Part shown: positions 3,950 to 22,903 of the stretch, in pieces
Layout: every line of letters starts with the position of its first letter
Position numbering within the stretch: position 1 is the first letter of the stretch
Source of the DNA: a virus
Virus record (IMG/VR): IMGVR_UViG_3300025769_000531
Location: 1-30,757 of that record
Length of the DNA stretch: 30,757 bases
Reading direction: 5' to 3' (one strand)
The notes under the pieces: model-generated
The model's input: only the letters and a program-made list of their open reading frames with translations
Told to the model about the DNA's origin: nothing
The model's database searches: none
Made by a program: the position numbers and the translations under genes

Positions 3950-6900
3950 ATGTCGAAGAAAAGACAGACACGAAATTCTAAAAAGTTTAAAAAGGCTGCT
4001 GCGTCTAAAAGAGCTAGAGCGCCGATGCAGAAAGGCGGACGTACTCCAAAATATGGTGACGTTGTAGAAAGAGATGGAAAGTTTTTTGAGTTTACTCCTG
4101 TTGGATATAGGGCTACTAATAAAGCCCCATCTACTAAAAGCAGTGCGCCTGCCAAACAAGCGCCTATTAAACAAGCACCAAGGCGTCCTGCTGGTCAAAC
4201 TGACGGAATTAATCCTAATCCTGTGGCTGATATTAAAATGGTAACTCAGCCAGTAAAGCCTACGCTTTCAGGGCCGATGCCAGCGCCTGCTGGTCAAACA
4301 ACTGGAATTAATCCTAATCCTATGGCAGGCATTCCTACAAAACAACCGCCTACTCGAACTACTGCTGGTCCTAAGCGTCCTCCTGATATAGGAACGCCTC
4401 GTCCTGAGCCAAGACCTACTGGAGTGTCAACACGCCCAGACAACACAGAAGGTCAGTTGCCAGAGTTTACAGGTACTGTTCCAAACCTAGCAGAAACAGG
4501 TCGAGTTTTTCAACCTACTACAACTACAAGAACTCCTACTGGTGATGACGGCGCTCAACTTCCTCCCGGCGACGATACTACACAAGCTAGGCCTGCAAAT
4601 GTTGCAGAGGCTAGGGCGCAACAACAAGGCGCTACTGCTGAAACTTTTCCAGATAGAGCAAACTATACTACAGATGATGAATATCAATCTGCCGTTCAAG
4701 AATATTTTGCAAATAATCCAATAGATTATTCAAACATTGGTGGCGGTAACATTGTTTCAGGCGGTGGACTTCAATCTGGACTCCCTTCACAAGCCCCAAT
4801 AGATCTTGAAATTAATCTTCCTGATCGTCCAGACTTGCCACAGATTACTCCTGAAGATGTGGCTTATGGTCCAGACTCTATGGTCTATGAGATGGCTGAT
4901 ACAGGTGATGCAAGAGCTACTTCAGCACGGGCAACTACAGCACGAGCACAAGCAGATGCAACTGCTGCACAAGCTGCTACGCCTCAACAAGTTCAAGCAG
5001 CACAAATGGAAGCTGCTATAGCTGAAGGCATTGCGCCCGGAGAAGGCGTAACAGGTCGAGTAAGTGAAGAGGCTATTGCAAGAGTTGATGAAGGTACTAT
5101 TACTCAACCGGCTGTTGCGGCTCAAAGAGATGCGGCTGCAGAACAAGCTGCAAGAGCAGTGGCTGCACAAAGGCCTGAGGCTCGTGATTATGCGGAAGCT
5201 GCTACAAGTGGAACTACTATTGAAGTAGAAGACATCGAAGGTCCAGCAGTTGTTACACGCGAAGGCGCTACAGTCTCAAAATCTGAAGTAGAGCGATTAG
5301 GTCAAATAGCGCAAGGACGTGGTGTAGATCTTCAAGATCTTCCAGAATACAAAGATGTAATTCAAAAGCGTATAGCTCAACAAGGTGAAGCAGCTACTGC
5401 TGAGTATCGATCACGTCTTGAAGAGGCTCCACAGGCTGAAGCAGCACAGGCAAGATTTGAAGGTGTTGATGTTACACCGCAAGGAAGGGCAGCAAGAATC
5501 GCTGATGTTCCAGAGCTAACAGCAGCTCAAAGAACTGCGGCACAAGCTGAAGAAGTTATGGCTCCTGATGCAGCGCAGATGGGCGATGTGGCTGAAGCAG
5601 TAACACAAGAGCGACAAGCCATTACTGCAGAAAAGCTAGAAGAAATGGCTGCATCTCAAACAGATCTTTCACAACTTGGAGACTTTAGTTTAGCTCAAAG
5701 ACGAACAGCACAGTCTGCTGAAGCTGCTACAGGCGTAGCCGCACAGTTAGGTGTTGCGCCAGAGTCTATCGCGGCTCAAGCTGCATATGTTGCTGCAGGT
5801 CAAATTCCTATTGAAGAAGCAGCAAACATTGATGACATTCCAGAGTTTCAAGTAGCTGCTCAACGAACTGCACCAGTAGGTGAGGCTGCTCAAGCTATTG
5901 CATCTCAATTAGGTGAAGCGCCTGCTGTAGATCTTGAAGGCCGTGAAGCTATTCTTGGAGAAGCGCCAAAGGGTAATGCATCTCAAATTGGTGGTATTCC
6001 AACAGCACAAGCTGCACAAATGCAGGCAGTTACTGGTAAAGCCCGTAAGATGGCTGCTGCAGATATGGCGCGAGTTACTGTGGGACTTCCCGAAGAAGTA
6101 ACCGCTGTTGTTATGGAAGACCCTGCAACCGTTGAAGCACAGTTAGATAATGCACCTCAAGAAGTTACAGCAGCTGTTGCAGCACTACCAGAAGAAGCGC
6201 TTGTATCTACACAGATGGAAGGCCTTCTCGCTGGTATGGAAGATGGCGAAGTTCCAATGTGGGCACGACCAGCTGTAGACGCAATCAACGCACAGATGGC
6301 TTCAAGAGGCCTTAGTACGTCCACTGTTGGACGAGATGCGTTATTCAATGCAATCATCCAGAGTGCGCTTCCAATGGCTCAGAGCAACGCTCAAGCCCTT
6401 CAGCAACGTGCTACTCAAAACCTTAACAATCAACAGCAAGCAAATCTTCAGCAGTCTAAGCAGATTGCTCAACAGCGTTTGGCAAATCTTTCAAACAAGC
6501 AAACAGCTGCGTCTCAGACAGCACAAATGGCACAGCAAGTTAACATCAAACAGTCTGAGTTTCAACAACAGGCTGAGATGGCAACTGCCCAACAGCGCGA
6601 ACAAGCACGTTTAACTGAAGCTCAGTTTGCACAGCAAAGGGCACAGCAGACTTCACAGCAACAGCAACAAGCAGCTTTACAGAACTTGTCTGCTGGTCAG
6701 CAAATGGATCTTGCTAACCTTCAAGCTATTAATGCTTCTGCGACTCAAAATCTTAACGCAGAGCAACAGGCTCGTCTTGCGTCTTATCAGGCTCAAGTCA
6801 ATCGTACTATGCGTCAAGCGGACCTTCAACAAGACATGGACAAGGCGAACTTAAGTGCTTCGCTTCAGGTTGAGATGTCTAACCTAAACAATCAGAATCT

Positions 6901-9247
6901 TGCAGCTAGAGATTCTATGTCTGCTGAACAACAAGAGAGACTGACTAATCTTCAGACTCTTGTAGACTTCCGCAAAACAAACGCTACGTTAGCACAGCAA
7001 ATGGATCTTGCAAATCTTAGCAACGATCAGCAAATGCGTTTGGCTAATTTACAGCAGAAGGCTGAAGCAGACCAAGCAAACTTTACAGCACAAAATCAGT
7101 TTGAACTTACAGAGCTAAATGCAAAAGTTCAACGAGCTACACGTCAGGCTGAACTCAAGCAAGACATGACTAAAGCTAATTTGAATACTTCTCTTCAGGT
7201 TGAGTTGTCTGAGTTGTCTGAAAAGAACGCTACTGCCCGTGCAAACATGACAGCAGAGCAGCAGACTAGGCTTCAAAATCTCCAAACACTTGTAGACTTT
7301 AAGAAGACTGATGCACAGCTTGCTCAACAAATGGACATGGCTAACATGTCTAATGAGCAACAAATAGAGCTTGCGAACCTTGCTGAAAGAGCTTCTGCTG
7401 ATGCGGCTAACTTTACTGAAGCAAATCGTTTTAGATTGACAGAGCTTCAAACAGCAGCACAGGTGTTGTCGGAAAATACTCAGCTTCGTCAACAGGCCGA
7501 TATTGCAAACTTAAGTTCAGATGAGAAGATTACTCTAGCAAACTTAACTGCTCAGAATCAAGCGTCAGCCGACAACCTTAACGCATCTCAACAGGCTGAA
7601 CTTGCTAACTTGAATGCCCGAGTTCAGACAGAAACGCAGAATGCTCAGATGCGTCAGCAGGTCATAACGCAGTCGTTTAGTCAGCGTCAACAAACAGAGC
7701 TTGCGAATCTTGAGGCTTTGAATCGTGCAGGCTCTGAAAATCTTAGCGCTGAACAGCAGAGTCGTTTAGCAAGTTTTAACGCTACCATTGATCGCAATGT
7801 ACGTCAAGCAGATCTTACTCAACAAATGGAAGCTGCTAACCTTGACGCTCGACTTAAAGTAGAGTTGTCAGAGCTTACAGAGCGTAATGCAACTTCTCGT
7901 GCAAACATGTCGGCTGAACAGCAAACACGCCTTGCTAATCTTCAAACGCTTACTGAGTTTAGAACAACCAATGCTCAGTTAGCCCAGCAGATGGATATGG
8001 CAAACCTTGCAAACGAACAGCAAATGGAACTTGCAAATCTTCAAGAAAGAGCTTCAGCGGATGCTGCAAACTTTACTGAAGAAAACAGATTCCGTATGCA
8101 AGAGTTGAACAACTATGTTCAGGTAATGTCACAAAATGAACAGCTGTTACAACAAGCAGACCTTGCACGTCTTAGTATGGAAGAGCGTATTTCTCTTGCA
8201 AACCTTGATTCTAAGAATCGTGCAGACTCAGAGTCTATGTCAGCACAGAATGTTGCAGAGCTTCAGCAGTACGAAAAGCGTATGCAGGCAGCACAGGTTA
8301 ACGCACAGCTTGCACAGCAAATGGGCCTTGCAAATCTGTCTAATGAGCAGCAGGCTTCAATGTTTAATGCACAGATTGATGCGAATCTTGACATGGCTCA
8401 GTTTGATGCTAATCAGCAGGCTGCGCTGGCTAACAGTCAGTTTATGCAGTCAATGACCATGAAGGACTTTGATGCTCGACAACAGTCTGTAATGCAAAAC
8501 GCAACAGCTATGGCCTCAATGGATATGGCAAACCTTGATGCTCAAACGCGCTTGGCGGCTCAAAACGCTCAAGCATTTCTTCAGATGGACATGGCTAATC
8601 TTAGCAATGAACAACAGATGGCTGTTATGAATCAACAACAAGCACAGCAAACTATGCTATCGAATCAAGCTGCTGAGAATGCGTCTCGTCAGTTTAATGC
8701 TGCTAACGAACAACAAGCCAATCAGTTTATGGCAAGCCTAGCGTCTCAAACAGAGCAGTTCAACGCTGCTCAATCAAATGCTATGAGTCAGTTTAACATA
8801 TCTGAACAAAACCGCATAGCGGCTCAAAATGCTCAAAATGCTACACAGGTATCTTTGGCTAATGCTCAAATGGAAACAGATGTTTCAAAGTTCAACGAGA
8901 CTATGGATCAACAACGTGAGCAATTTAATGTCTCTAATCGACAGGCTATTGAACAAGCAGACATTGCGTGGCGGCGTCAGTCGAACACAATTAACACTGC
9001 GGCTCGTAATGCCGCTAATCAGCAGAATGTTATGAATGCTTATAACCTTGAAATGGGAGAAATGCAATTTTTATGGCAAGAGCTTCGCGATAATGCAGCA
9101 TACACACGACAGGCATACGAAAACGAACAAACTCGTATGACTCAGCTGTACGCAACAGCTATCGGTAATGAAGCAGCTGCTAGTAAAGAAAGCAGTTCTT
9201 CTATTAGTTCATTAATAAATATTATTAAAACGTCACTAGGAATATAA
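3950..9247 (+). CDS. Giant virion-type protein with an 80-unit 11-residue repeat array
   Basis: A 1765-residue protein with AGGGAG before its ATG. Residues 1-35 are strongly basic. Residues about 60-230 are Pro/Thr-rich and hold two copies of a 16-residue PAGQT-xGINPNP motif. Residues about 230-800 are Ala/Gln/Glu-rich with degenerate IPExxxAAQRTA / QLGxAP repeats. A short globular-looking block (EVPMWARPAVDAINAQM, then SRGLSTSTVGRDALF) follows near residues 765-805. From 862 to 1741 the protein is 80 units of exactly 11 residues (consensus about QQMxLANLSxE), then a 24-residue Ser-rich tail. No catalytic motif was seen. Long helical repeat proteins in this genomic place (between tail genes and probable ejection proteins) are likely structural: an internal core, ejection-tube or tail-length component. 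That role is inference. Ala, Gln, Asn and Met are high and Cys appears absent, fitting an extended helical assembly. Confidence 0.85.
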   Translation: MSKKRQTRNSKKFKKAAASKRARAPMQKGGRTPKYGDVVERDGKFFEFTPVGYRATNKAPSTKSSAPAKQAPIKQAPRRPAGQTDGINPNPVADIKMVTQPVKPTLSGPMPAPAGQTTGINPNPMAGIPTKQPPTRTTAGPKRPPDIGTPRPEPRPTGVSTRPDNTEGQLPEFTGTVPNLAETGRVFQPTTTTRTPTGDDGAQLPPGDDTTQARPANVAEARAQQQGATAETFPDRANYTTDDEYQSAVQEYFANNPIDYSNIGGGNIVSGGGLQSGLPSQAPIDLEINLPDRPDLPQITPEDVAYGPDSMVYEMADTGDARATSARATTARAQADATAAQAATPQQVQAAQMEAAIAEGIAPGEGVTGRVSEEAIARVDEGTITQPAVAAQRDAAAEQAARAVAAQRPEARDYAEAATSGTTIEVEDIEGPAVVTREGATVSKSEVERLGQIAQGRGVDLQDLPEYKDVIQKRIAQQGEAATAEYRSRLEEAPQAEAAQARFEGVDVTPQGRAARIADVPELTAAQRTAAQAEEVMAPDAAQMGDVAEAVTQERQAITAEKLEEMAASQTDLSQLGDFSLAQRRTAQSAEAATGVAAQLGVAPESIAAQAAYVAAGQIPIEEAANIDDIPEFQVAAQRTAPVGEAAQAIASQLGEAPAVDLEGREAILGEAPKGNASQIGGIPTAQAAQMQAVTGKARKMAAADMARVTVGLPEEVTAVVMEDPATVEAQLDNAPQEVTAAVAALPEEALVSTQMEGLLAGMEDGEVPMWARPAVDAINAQMASRGLSTSTVGRDALFNAIIQSALPMAQSNAQALQQRATQNLNNQQQANLQQSKQIAQQRLANLSNKQTAASQTAQMAQQVNIKQSEFQQQAEMATAQQREQARLTEAQFAQQRAQQTSQQQQQAALQNLSAGQQMDLANLQAINASATQNLNAEQQARLASYQAQVNRTMRQADLQQDMDKANLSASLQVEMSNLNNQNLAARDSMSAEQQERLTNLQTLVDFRKTNATLAQQMDLANLSNDQQMRLANLQQKAEADQANFTAQNQFELTELNAKVQRATRQAELKQDMTKANLNTSLQVELSELSEKNATARANMTAEQQTRLQNLQTLVDFKKTDAQLAQQMDMANMSNEQQIELANLAERASADAANFTEANRFRLTELQTAAQVLSENTQLRQQADIANLSSDEKITLANLTAQNQASADNLNASQQAELANLNARVQTETQNAQMRQQVITQSFSQRQQTELANLEALNRAGSENLSAEQQSRLASFNATIDRNVRQADLTQQMEAANLDARLKVELSELTERNATSRANMSAEQQTRLANLQTLTEFRTTNAQLAQQMDMANLANEQQMELANLQERASADAANFTEENRFRMQELNNYVQVMSQNEQLLQQADLARLSMEERISLANLDSKNRADSESMSAQNVAELQQYEKRMQAAQVNAQLAQQMGLANLSNEQQASMFNAQIDANLDMAQFDANQQAALANSQFMQSMTMKDFDARQQSVMQNATAMASMDMANLDAQTRLAAQNAQAFLQMDMANLSNEQQMAVMNQQQAQQTMLSNQAAENASRQFNAANEQQANQFMASLASQTEQFNAAQSNAMSQFNISEQNRIAAQNAQNATQVSLANAQMETDVSKFNETMDQQREQFNVSNRQAIEQADIAWRRQSNTINTAARNAANQQNVMNAYNLEMGEMQFLWQELRDNAAYTRQAYENEQTRMTQLYATAIGNEAAASKESSSSISSLINIIKTSLGI
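4187..4333 (+). repeat. Duplicated 48-bp segment encoding PAGQT-xGINPNP
   Basis: Two in-frame copies at 4187-4234 and 4286-4333 encode PAGQTDGINPNPVADI and PAGQTTGINPNPMAGI, starting 33 residues (99 bp) apart. Most bases are identical. They lie in the Pro/Thr-rich N-terminal part of the giant protein. The 33-residue spacing is three times the 11-residue period seen later, which may be coincidence. Confidence 0.8.
6533..9172 (+). repeat. 33-bp-period coding repeat: 80 consecutive hendecads
   Basis: Starting at residue 862 (QQVNIKQSEFQ) the translation divides into 80 successive 11-mers with no phase slip, ending at residue 1741 (TQLYATAIGNE). Typical units are QQMDLANLSND, QQMRLANLQQK, NQFELTELNAK, NATARANMTAE and QQTRLANLQTL. 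Position 8 is nearly always Leu, Phe or Met. Positions 3 and 5 are usually apolar, position 6 is often Ala, 7 often Asn, and 1-2 often Gln-Gln. The arithmetic closes: 861 + 880 + 24 tail residues = 1765. A coarser 10-unit period (110 residues, 330 bp) is also visible, for example QQERLTNLQTL, QQTRLQNLQTL and QQTRLANLQTL at multiples of ten units. DNA identity between units is low, so this is an old, selected protein repeat rather than a recent DNA expansion. Confidence 0.93.
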
Positions 9248-17211: not shown

Positions 17212-17494
17212 GAAAAAAGATCCAAGGCTAGAAAGAGCAGGAGTAAGTGGCTACAACAAACCGAAACGTACACCCAATCACAAAACAAAGTCACACGTCG
17301 TGGTGGCAAAAGAAGGAGACAAAGTTAAAACAATACGCTTTGGTCAGAAGGGCGCGAAAACTGCAGGCAAGCCAAAAGCAGGAGAGTCAGCACGTATGAA
17401 AGCAAAGCGGAAGTCGTTTAAGGCAAGACACGCTAAGAATATTAAGCGAGGAAAGATGTCAGCGGCTTACTGGGCTGATAAAGTCAAATGGTAG
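17204..17494 (+). CDS. Small Lys/Arg-rich phage protein (DUF6321-like)
   Basis: A 96-residue very basic protein with GGAG before ATG. Its C-terminal half, KTIRFGQKGAKTAGKPKAGE then RKSFKARHAKNIKRGKMSAA and YWADKVKW, is a strongly conserved pattern in marine phages that I associate with DUF6321. The family name is from memory and should be checked. No enzyme motif was seen. The charge suggests nucleic-acid binding, for example in packaging or the virion. It starts eight bases inside the lysozyme gene, and its stop overlaps the next start. Confidence 0.8.
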   Translation: MTKKKDPRLERAGVSGYNKPKRTPNHKTKSHVVVAKEGDKVKTIRFGQKGAKTAGKPKAGESARMKAKRKSFKARHAKNIKRGKMSAAYWADKVKW

Positions 17495-17679
17495 TAGATC
17501 TATTTACCAAGCATCCAAAGTCTGCTAATGAAACATATTGGCAGCATCTAAAGCGAGCAGCTATGCTTTCTGGATGGTTGTTCTTGGGAGGTCTTGTATG
17601 TGCAGTTCATGCGGTCTTTCCTTTTTTATTCACTCAAACTGCAAGTAAGATAGTATGTAAATTATATACTAAATACTAA
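17488..17679 (+). CDS. Small membrane protein, DUF6356-like
   Basis: A 63-residue protein reading LFTKHPKSANETYWQHL, then a hydrophobic stretch (about 28-50, MLSGWLFLGGLVCAVHAVFP, continuing FLFTQTASKIV). The pattern 'LFTKHPxSxxETYxxHL ... HAxFPFLFxxTxS' is that of DUF6356, a family of short membrane proteins also found in bacterial genomes. It begins seven bases inside the preceding gene. Located between lysozyme and a second holin-like gene, it may take part in lysis or membrane modification, but the function is unknown. Confidence 0.75.
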   Translation: MVVDLFTKHPKSANETYWQHLKRAAMLSGWLFLGGLVCAVHAVFPFLFTQTASKIVCKLYTKY

Positions 17680-18142: not shown

Positions 18143-18345
18143 CAACAAAAAGAAAAACAACACCAAAAAAAAAGTCTAAGTCTCGCGTCAATGAAGCTGG
18201 TAACTATACCAAGCCTACTATGCGTAAGCGACTCTTTAACAAGATAAAGGCTGGTTCAAAGGGTGGTAAGCCCGGCCAGTGGTCTGCGCGAAAAGCTCAG
18301 ATGCTTGCTAAAGAGTACAAGGCTGCAGGTGGAGGTTACAAATAA
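18139..18345 (+). CDS. Very basic small protein
   Basis: A 68-residue protein opening MTTKRKTTPKKKSKSR, then RVNEAGNYTKPTMRKRLFNK, IKAGSKGGKPGQWSARKAQM and ending KAAGGGYK. The 'KPTMRKRLFxxIKAGSKGGxPGQWSARKAQ' pattern recurs in marine phages and some cellular genomes. No function is known to me. The high Lys/Arg/Gly content and lack of acidic patches suggest DNA or RNA binding. Four-base and one-base overlaps (ATGA, TAATG) tie it to its neighbours. Confidence 0.8.
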   Translation: MTTKRKTTPKKKSKSRVNEAGNYTKPTMRKRLFNKIKAGSKGGKPGQWSARKAQMLAKEYKAAGGGYK

Positions 18346-18596
18346 TGGCTCTCAAGAAGTCTCAGAAGTCTCTTAAGGCTTGGACAAAACAAAAATGGCG
18401 TACTAAGTCGGGCAAGAAATCCAGTAAGACTGGAGAGAGATATTTACCTGAGAAGGCTATCAAGGCTTTGTCCGCCAAAGAGTACGCCGCTACTAGCCGC
18501 AAAAAGCGCGAAGATACAAAAAAGGGCAAACAACACAGCAAGCAGCCGAAGAAGATTGCCCAAAAAACTCGAAGGTATAGATCTAAAAAGTCCTAG
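18345..18596 (+). CDS. Very basic small protein, DUF5872-like; last gene of the plus-strand block
   Basis: An 83-residue protein with about 24 Lys and 7 Arg (about 37 percent basic). Recognisable segments are LKAWTKQKWRTKSGKKSS, GERYLPEKAIKALSAKEYA and KQPKKIAQKTRRYRS. I link the pattern 'WTKQKWRTxSGKxS ... YLPxKAxKALxxxEYAAT' with DUF5872 from memory. It is known from marine phages and scattered cellular genomes, function unknown. Nucleic-acid binding is likely from charge. Its ATG shares one base with the preceding stop. Its last 14 bases overlap, tail to tail, the last gene of the opposite-strand block. Confidence 0.8.
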   Translation: MALKKSQKSLKAWTKQKWRTKSGKKSSKTGERYLPEKAIKALSAKEYAATSRKKREDTKKGKQHSKQPKKIAQKTRRYRSKKS

Positions 18597-18819
18597 TGTT
18601 CAACGCATCTAGTTCTCTTTCGATCTTTTCATGTAATCCTTCGAGATGATAAAGAGCCTGCTCAAGAACTGTTGTAATTATTTTTTGCTCTTCAGGCTCT
18701 TTAAATATTCTACCTACCTCATTCTTTGGAATCTTATTAAACTCAGTCATCAAGTTTCCAGAAGCATCAAAGAAAATCCTAAAACCTACAAGGTTTCCTT
18801 CCTGTTTATTACTAGCCAT
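18583..18819 (-). CDS. Small acidic/helical protein, last gene of the minus-strand block
   Basis: I use the ATG at 18819 (MASNKQEGNLVGFRIFFDAS), which overlaps the upstream gene's stop by eight bases, rather than the earlier in-frame ATG at 18846 buried in that gene. This gives a 78-residue product. It starts with a probable beta segment (VGFRIFFDASGNLMTEFN), followed by a long charged helix (EPEEQKIITTVLEQALYHLE, HEKIERELDALNTRTF). No family was recognised. The coding sequence contains a perfect 11-bp inverted repeat (18650-18703), and its end overlaps the convergent plus-strand gene. Confidence 0.65.
   Translation of the reverse strand: MASNKQEGNLVGFRIFFDASGNLMTEFNKIPKNEVGRIFKEPEEQKIITTVLEQALYHLEGLHEKIERELDALNTRTF
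18650..18703. terminator. 11-bp inverted repeat at the convergent junction (possible bidirectional terminator)
   Basis: TAAAGAGCCTG (18650-18660) and CAGGCTCTTTA (18693-18703) are perfect reverse complements. A further AAGA/TCTT pairing (18664-18667 with 18689-18692) follows after a 3-base bulge, closing a 21-base loop that holds a T6 run. It lies 53 bases past the last plus-strand stop codon and inside the last minus-strand gene. A second 8-bp inverted pair CTCGAAGG / CCTTCGAG (18568-18575 and 18638-18645) lies just before it. There is no proper U-tract on either strand, so terminator function is a positional inference. Confidence 0.35.
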
Positions 18820-19039
18820 TTCGAGTTTCCATTTCAATACGAACAATGTCTAGCCCGTCAAGATAATCTTTAGACTCTATCAAAAGCTTTAGCTGAGACT
18901 CGATTGCCTCGTAAAAAGCGTCGTGGTCGTGGAAGGCCATAGGGTTACTAATAATAACCTCAACTGCCATTGCGTGTTTTTTTATGTCTGCTTCGTAATA
19001 GCTTCTCATTGTCTTCAGTATTTGGTTTGGATTCAACAT
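18812..19039 (-). CDS. Small protein of unknown function
   Basis: A 75-residue product (MLNPNQILKTMRSYYEADIK) if started at 19039, where AAGGAT lies seven bases upstream. An ATG at 19009 (MRSYYEADIKKHAMAVEVII) is the alternative. The sequence is helical and acidic: VEVIISNPMAFHDHDAFYEA, ESQLKLLIESKDYLDGL. Small proteins with 'YxEADIxKHxxxVEVYxxNPxxxxxHxDxxEAIExxL' style occur in phages; the function is unknown. It overlaps the preceding 58-residue gene by 80 bases in another frame and the following gene by eight bases. Confidence 0.65.
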   Translation of the reverse strand: MLNPNQILKTMRSYYEADIKKHAMAVEVIISNPMAFHDHDAFYEAIESQLKLLIESKDYLDGLDIVRIEMETRNG

Positions 19040-21765: not shown

Positions 21766-22046
21766 GTCTGCATCTCAGCTTTAATATCTTCTAGAGTGTA
21801 TGTATTAATAGGTCTTTCAGGCTGTCGAGCCACCAAACCCTTTAGTTTTTTGCGCACCCAGCGTGGAGAAAAGGTGCTAAGAAAAAACTTGTTGTTGGCA
21901 AAAACATGCGTCTGATCAGGGAGAAGTTCTTTGTAATTATCTAAAGTGATCTTCTTGGCTTCTTCTTCAGAGACTAATGTCTTTAACCAATCAACAAGAA
22001 TAGGTCCAACTTGTTTGTTGATTTGCTTTATTTTCTTTCTGTTCAT
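21738..22046 (-). CDS. Basic 102-residue protein of unknown function
   Basis: Starts MNRKKIKQINKQVGPILVDW at ATG 22046, overlapping the exonuclease stop by four bases (ATGA). Basic N-terminus, then helical LKTLVSEEEAKKITLDNYKE, FLSTFSPRWVRKKLKGLVAR and an acidic end ending in NREF. No known motif. It lies between two DNA nucleases and is translationally coupled to the first, suggesting a DNA-metabolism accessory. That is context only. Its last 28 bases overlap the following 56-residue gene. Confidence 0.72.
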   Translation of the reverse strand: MNRKKIKQINKQVGPILVDWLKTLVSEEEAKKITLDNYKELLPDQTHVFANNKFFLSTFSPRWVRKKLKGLVARQPERPINTYTLEDIKAEMQTWKMINREF

Positions 22047-22903
22047 AAAAGAATCTCTTCAACTCTTGGCTCTACCGCAACTTCAGTAAAATATACGGGG
22101 CCGTTAGAATATCTAAATGCTCTAAGTCCTTCGCCTTCGTTCGCGTCTGAGTAGCATTCAAACTTATAAGGACAGTATGCACAACCAGAAGGTAGTTTCA
22201 TGTTTCCTTTTTTACCTTCAGGTATAGGAGCATAACACCTGTCAGGAGGCGTGTCAACGGCAATTGCTGCCTTGACCTTTTTGATTTTTTCTTTTACGTT
22301 TGGCTTCTCTAGGTCGTCGGGCCGAAACAAACACAACTCACCGCTCTCTTTGTTGATAACAAGAAAGCCGCCGTTTTTTGTTTCTTCAGCAGTCTCGTAT
22401 CCAGACAGCTGTGCAAGATATCCAAAAGGATCGTTGTTGACTAGTGAGCCATCTTTAAATTTATTAAAAGAAAACCTTGAGGCTGTCTTAACGTCTACGA
22501 CTTGACCGTCTATCTTGCAGTCCATGTGTCCTAGTATGCCGTCTACGTTTACTTCTTTCTGTTCTGAAGTAACTTCATGGCCTGCCATTCGGACTAACAT
22601 CAAAACTATTTCTTCTAGGACGTGCCCATAAAGAAATTTAATTTGTGTTGAGCCGCTAACGGCGTGAGGGCTTGAGGCGTTTTTGCTTTCATACCATAGC
22701 TGCCGTAAAGGTCTTCCGATGTTAGACATTCGAAGCCTAAAGCTGTTATCAACTTCTCGTGGTTTAGACCAAGCAAGTATGCTTTCTTTCATACGTGAAA
22801 GGGTTAGGTCTAGTTCTTCTTCAGAGATATTTAATGCCTCTCCAGATGAAAGACCTTCTAGATTAGAATAAATATCTTGAATAAGTGTATCTAAATTTTT
22901 CAT
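22043..22903 (-). CDS. PD-(D/E)XK exonuclease, Cas4/RecB-like, with four-cysteine cluster
   Basis: A 286-residue protein. The nuclease core shows E97/E98 (YGHVLEEIVLML), D128 in ILGHMDCKIDG, D137 and K139 in QVVDVKTAS, and the RecB-type Q165...Y169 (YLAQLSGY). A C-terminal cysteine set C223, C241, C244 and C250 (CYAPIPEGKK, then SGCAYCPYKFEC) could hold an Fe-S cluster or zinc as in Cas4/AddB-type enzymes. All four visible ligands are near the C-terminus, unlike the usual Cas4 arrangement with one N-terminal cysteine. Its likely role is the 5'-3' exonuclease function (T7 gp6) for host DNA breakdown and phage recombination. It overlaps both neighbours by four bases. Confidence 0.88.
   Translation of the reverse strand: MKNLDTLIQDIYSNLEGLSSGEALNISEEELDLTLSRMKESILAWSKPREVDNSFRLRMSNIGRPLRQLWYESKNASSPHAVSGSTQIKFLYGHVLEEIVLMLVRMAGHEVTSEQKEVNVDGILGHMDCKIDGQVVDVKTASRFSFNKFKDGSLVNNDPFGYLAQLSGYETAEETKNGGFLVINKESGELCLFRPDDLEKPNVKEKIKKVKAAIAVDTPPDRCYAPIPEGKKGNMKLPSGCAYCPYKFECYSDANEGEGLRAFRYSNGPVYFTEVAVEPRVEEILL

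Follow-up and report, generated by a model that had tools for sequence, protein, structure and literature searches.

The two gene blocks of the marine bacterial virus analysed here converge without a gap, and we consider it fairly probable from the sequence that the signals ending their transcripts are embedded in the opposing coding sequence, with a hairpin that lacks a U-tract working like a polymerase-collision terminator. The window, by which we mean the whole stretch of DNA under analysis, is a virus record of 30,757 bases. Its left part carries structural and lysis genes on the plus strand, up to an 83-aa basic protein. Its right part carries the replication genes on the minus strand, for a DNA polymerase, a primase/helicase, an endonuclease and a class II ribonucleotide reductase, the last gene encoding an 87-aa protein. 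Throughout, "early" (minus block) and "late" (plus block) are labels inferred from gene content, and clade letters are labels taken from the alignment. Because the stop codons of both blocks overlap, the end signal of each transcript lies inside the opposing gene. The features of the junction are as follows.

18345-18596, plus strand: late gene, the last of the plus-strand block; 83 aa, phrog_14910, no assigned function.
18583-18846, minus strand: early gene, the last of the minus-strand block; 87 aa from a TTG start, phrog_27180, no assigned function.
18583-18596, both strands: the stop regions of the two genes overlap tail to tail by 14 nt (plus gene 18345-18596, minus gene 18583-18846).
18650-18703, plus strand: hairpin H1, with arms 18650-18660/18693-18703 and inner arms 18664-18669/18687-18692.
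18562-18645, minus strand: hairpin H2, an 8-bp pair (18568-18575/18638-18645) followed by T6 (18567-18562) and spanning both stop codons.
18518-18561, minus strand: hairpin H3, a predicted intrinsic terminator with stem 18556-18561/18524-18529 and T6 at 18523-18518.

The early gene could alternatively start at an ATG at 18820. Homologues of the late gene were found in 15 named phage records, including that of Puniceispirillum phage HMO-2011, with SAR11, roseobacter and SAR116 bacteria as hosts. A search of named phages with the early-gene product gave no match at E 0.01, and no relatives of the early protein were confirmed in cellular genomes. The window had no gathering-threshold match in Rfam 15 and thus no known RNA family. 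Elsewhere in the late block, positions 3950-9247 of the plus strand hold an ORF of 1765 aa with many repeated Q/A/N heptad-like motifs, which is probably a large structural or internal virion protein.

The 14-base overlap of the stop regions, reported in the first-pass annotation of this DNA, was confirmed from the gene coordinates. A relative of the early protein was present in 36 viral contigs; 34 of these, together with the window, gave 35 loci in which both genes were complete at the junction. The stops overlap in 34 of the 35, by 14 nt in 21 loci and by 29 nt in 13. At the remaining locus, L107, 162 nt separate the late gene from the early-gene relative, and this gap holds a 54-codon ORF on the early strand; its stop and the late stop share 4 nt. 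Among six further loci, five show the 29-nt overlap, and the 226 nt flanking L158 contain no late homologue. The tail-to-tail overlap is a kept feature of these loci.

H1 begins 53 nt beyond the late stop codon, within the early gene, and has no U-tract. The perfect 11-bp inverted repeat described at first pass was found at 18650-18660/18693-18703, as were its inner AAGA/TCTT pairing, the T6 run in its loop and the neighbouring 8-bp pair at 18568-18575/18638-18645. The two hairpins are adjacent, not nested as had been proposed. The window has no other perfect repeat of at least 11 bp whose arms are up to 60 nt apart; dinucleotide shuffling (n = 60) produced a mean of 0.65 such repeats per shuffled window, and the bare repeat is therefore not significant. 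Folding of 18560-18720 on both strands, suggested earlier as a check, gave significant z values of -4.8 (plus) and -4.2 (minus), with 0/200 shuffles on each strand reaching the native value. No U-tract terminator scored above zero on the plus strand at the junction, and none did on the late strand at H1 in any of the 35 loci scanned; in L003 and L004 a late-strand terminator match lies about 290 nt beyond H1. As H1 has no U-tract, we do not class it as an intrinsic (Rho-independent) terminator.

The contribution of the RNA structure was separated from that of the protein by permuting synonymous codons within the early gene and refolding both strands of a 90-nt window whose position was fixed only after the alignments had been seen. 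As test loci we used 22 representatives of the 35 (sequences of >97% identity removed); loci within one clade are related and so not independent, and Fisher values computed from them are too optimistic. On the late strand, z fell below -2 at H1 in 21 of the 22 distinct loci. Such a z occurred in 0/52 antisense windows of the window's other genes, and in 8/178 antisense windows of the other early-strand ORFs of these loci. The lone exception was again L107, with a late-strand z of -1.66 in the early gene. There the hairpin sits in the substitute ORF, where it starts 47 nt past the late stop and has a late-strand z of -2.98 (0/400). Of the added loci, L155 passed the threshold (late z -3.28), and L153 (-1.34) and L158 (-1.52) missed it; the 12-bp stem of L153 is intact despite its value in the fixed window. 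On the early strand, z was below -2 in 15 of the 22 loci, compared with 5/52 coding-strand controls. The lower z belonged to the late strand in 14 loci and to the early strand in eight, which makes the strand assignment of H1 weak. The H1 hairpin is nevertheless stronger than its codons require.

The pairing that forms the hairpin differs between clades. In clade A, to which the window belongs, TAAAGAGCCTG pairs with CAGGCTCTTTA over 11 bp. This form is broken in 6 of the 12 clade-A sequences and absent from clades B and C; in L011 and L096-L099 the pairing is down to 7-9 pairs, and L010, in which the clade-A stem is broken, uses those 5'-side codons for a shifted stem of 10 bp. In clade B, AGGCCGCTCA pairs with TGGGTGGCCT, and two of these pairs are G-U, on the late strand alone; in clade C a stem of about 14 bp forms between other codons. 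Hairpins at the H1 place start 31-64 nt past the late stop in all clades. The early proposal had named loss of the repeat from relatives that keep the proteins as an argument against a role; the 11-bp form is indeed lost, but other pairings keep a hairpin there. Synonymous third positions in clade A are invariant at 7/12 sites in the H1 arms, compared with 4/53 elsewhere in the early gene. Compensatory changes on both sides of a pair, another of the proposed checks, were not found within clade A or clade C, and within-clade covariation provided no proof of either hairpin, H1 or H3. Since variation is absent from most pairs, the comparison is silent rather than contrary.

The sequence had been said to contain no classical terminator. 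This holds for the plus strand at the junction, where no U-tract match scored above zero, but not for the minus strand, where H3 (18518-18561) lies inside the late gene, 21 nt past the early stop codon. H3 has a GC-rich stem-loop (GGGCAA/TTGCCC, a 38-nt hairpin of -14.6 kcal/mol) with the T6 at 18523-18518 directly after the stem. Terminators were scored with our own implementation of the d'Aubenton Carafa formula (d), and H3 was the only minus-strand match above zero in the window. The count of matches with d > 0 is not itself unusual: the window holds three (H3 and two on the plus strand elsewhere), shuffles average 1.1 over both strands, and at least three were present in 5/40 shuffles. A generic promoter and terminator scan was likewise not above shuffles (7 terminator-like sites, compared with 5.9); it omits H3 because the loop of H3 is longer than the scan allows.

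The H3 stem is perfect and followed by a T5-T6 tail in all 12 distinct clade-A sequences. A comparable hairpin site anywhere in the late gene was present in 4/75 homologues from other loci, a set classed by search origin and not individually, in which the next ORF is co-directional in 55 of the 71 with enough flank. The d score is above zero in 10/12 clade-A sequences (it is below zero in L010 and L099) compared with 2/75 of the other late genes. H3 is absent from clades B and C; another weak site occurs in 4/6 clade-B sequences and in the window itself, and none in clade C (10 sequences) or L107. When the codons of the late genes were permuted, 74-325 of 2000 permutations per gene yielded a site of this kind. 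Synonymous third positions are invariant at 5/5 sites in the H3 stem and tail, compared with 12/64 outside 18513-18560; in the loop, 4/11 are invariant. Counting against H3, the last 90 nt of the late gene lacked a general folding excess in all 22 loci, on the plus as on the minus strand.

H2 and its T6 were also considered as a minus-strand terminator and rejected, given that H2 spans both stops and is lost in half of clade A: all 8 pairs are present in 6/12 sequences, and 4-6 of the 8 in the other six. The 8-bp pair is probably incidental.

Distance from the stop codon is relevant to all three hairpins. In the system of PMC4824070, ribosomes are reported to suppress a terminator that lies shortly after a stop codon, and full efficiency is attained beyond 27 nt. 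Where stops overlap, such a distance necessarily falls within the opposing gene. H1, at 53 nt, lies beyond 27 nt, H3, at 21 nt, falls slightly short, and H2, which spans both stops, fails entirely. For H3 this short distance predicts reduced efficiency, not absence of function.

Junctions in named phages show what the more usual arrangement looks like. HMO-2011 has a convergence gap of 157 nt with GGGGGC/GCCCCC and T8, scoring d 56.9 on the early and 10.1 on the late strand; across 50000 scanned bases, the plus strand has no other match and the minus strand one more. CRP-13 has a 47-nt gap with terminators on both strands (d 6.0 and 6.8), and CRP-1 a 40-nt gap with a classical terminator on the early strand (d 50). 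The classical terminators in these gaps indicate that intrinsic termination is used in this phage group. The three phages belong to the same group as the window and their terminators (on both strands in HMO-2011 and CRP-13, on the early strand in CRP-1) do the same job where early and late blocks meet; they differ in having a GC-rich hairpin with T-tails in a gap (157, 47 and 40 nt), whereas the window has separate elements embedded in genes, no gap and no late-strand U-tract match. Judged from these comparisons, the window's lineage would so carry out intrinsic termination without a gap. In HTVC034P, HTVC035P and Lederberg EXVC029P (junctions at L162:8076-8799, L163:2001-2771 and L164:2001-2766), the convergent partner of the same late gene is a DnaA-like early gene, and the two overlap by 8, 0 and 8 nt. 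No late-strand folding excess was detected at these junctions (z -0.42, -1.43 and -1.15) and no U-tract terminator near them, showing that not every overlap has embedded hairpins.

These three pelagiphages count against our reading and in favour of its main rival, namely that termination is by Rho and the transcript is then trimmed to H1. The early/late boundary would be Rho-dependent, H1 would be an exonuclease barrier at the 3' end of the late mRNA, and H3 would have a similar role or none. Since the pelagiphages overlap or abut and manage without a hairpin, hairpin-free termination must exist at such junctions; the lack of a U-tract at H1 in every clade and the late-strand folding excess in 21/22 loci also speak for such a barrier. 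The classical junction terminators of HMO-2011, CRP-1 and CRP-13, together with H3 in clade A, point instead to hairpin termination in this group, and we regard the Rho scheme as unlikely. A further alternative, which we judge less likely again, is that H1 acts on the early mRNA, as a structure affecting translation or decay of the early gene, or in the DNA as a binding palindrome. It would account for the early-strand z below -2 in 15/22 loci, lower than the late-strand z in 8/22, and for the fact that the window's single inner-stem G-U pairs on the early strand. However, clade B and part of clade C show an excess on the late strand only (L100, L101, L104, L113 and L115, with early z from -1.88 to -0.73 and late z from -2.77 to -3.55), the two G-U pairs of clade B are possible on the late strand only, and three clade-C cells have late-strand G-U pairs. 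Translating ribosomes would also open H1 on the early mRNA, and a single binding site is disfavoured because the H1 arms of different clades are unrelated. Least of all do we credit an absence of function, in which chance repeats and coding constraint give the observed pattern and read-through transcripts form excludon-like antisense RNA: the 0.65 repeats expected per window, the lack of compensatory changes, the loss of H2 in 6/12 clade-A sequences and the hairpin-free pelagiphages all agree with it, but 21/22 loci compared with 8/178 controls, several non-homologous pairings and the case of L107 are hard to obtain that way, although within-clade loci are not independent.

We therefore return to embedded termination signals as the preferred reading. 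From the computed overlap, hairpins, persistence, folding excess beyond codon choice and synonymous constraint, we infer that the hairpins end transcription, which strand H1 serves and that collision is involved. The late transcript would end at H1, a selected RNA structure without a U-tract in the early gene. Most likely, H1 would pause or stabilise RNA polymerase and so position head-on collisions and with them the 3' ends; alternatively, it might protect 3' ends left by Rho. In the window's clade, the early transcript would be ended by H3 in the late gene, and H1 might contribute as a second element. The first-pass annotation had offered two options, a bidirectional terminator built into the coding sequence or colliding transcripts that form antisense RNA. 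The signals do appear to be embedded in coding sequence, but as H1 and, in clade A, a separate H3, not as one symmetric terminator; the other option, collision with antisense RNA, may belong to the same mechanism.

Convergent terminators, overlapping 3' ends and termination by collision are already known. An 8-bp-stem hairpin lies between the convergent Escherichia coli genes ynaJ and uspE (PMC13082048, a preprint citing Ju 2019 and Wang 2023), and according to that preprint it prolongs the life of head-on collided polymerases, positions the collisions and sets both 3' ends. The window likewise has convergent genes with a hairpin-forming sequence at the junction, and by analogy H1 would fit the role described there. 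The ynaJ-uspE hairpin, as described there, is located between the genes; H1 lies in phage coding sequence past overlapping stops. Overlapping transcription and the excludon, according to a review (PMC7154746), similarly involve convergent genes without a terminator between them and overlapping 3' regions. The excludon differs in being a matter of reciprocal regulation, whereas the window has an overlap of coding ends with embedded signals that would limit transcript overlap. In a published phage with two convergent transcription units, the terminator lies between the genes, unlike in the window. Full-text searches of an open-access library yielded no description of a phage early/late boundary with signals embedded in the opposing genes, which is not proof that none exists.

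A broader version of this account, which we put forward tentatively, is that an intergenic bidirectional terminator of the HMO-2011 type has been replaced by overlapping stops and reciprocally hidden signals, a late hairpin in the early gene and an early terminator in the late gene, which would constrain codon choice. New pairings may have arisen for the hairpin in several clades, and in one case it may have been rebuilt in another gene, with its spacing from the late stop preserved so that it escapes melting by terminating ribosomes. Searches for termination signals usually look between genes. Should compact phages embed them in opposing coding sequence, terminator prediction based on gaps will miss them, and mutations that seem silent close to the ends of convergent genes can face strong selection at the RNA level. 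Junctions with a gap and a classical terminator, with an overlap and an embedded hairpin, and with an overlap but no hairpin form a natural comparison set for asking how marine phages stop convergent polymerases, and whether hairpins without a U-tract position polymerase collisions.

Several other terminator-like sites were noted. At another gene pair, in HTVC033P, the annotated 57-aa gp34 (L166:3286-3456) covers strong classical terminators, one for each strand (d 40.0 and 37.1); the ORF may not be a real gene but a miscall across a region of bidirectional termination. CRP-13 has, in addition to the bidirectional terminator in its gap, a strong late-strand terminator of d 21.5 (L161:3726, record position ~16725), which falls within an annotated early gene at about 250 nt from the late stop and is possibly another embedded signal. 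In the window, a plus-strand hairpin with T6 at 17586-17636 (d 1.1) lies inside a DUF6356 ORF (17488-17679), and related hairpins with T6 score d 2.1-19.4 in L001, L003, L004, L011, L103 and L106; it may be a product of the protein motif, or it may attenuate late-strand transcription ahead of the block's last genes. Finally, a plus-strand terminator-like hairpin with T6 at 22242-22284 (d 13.0) lies antisense within the early gene at 22043-22903.
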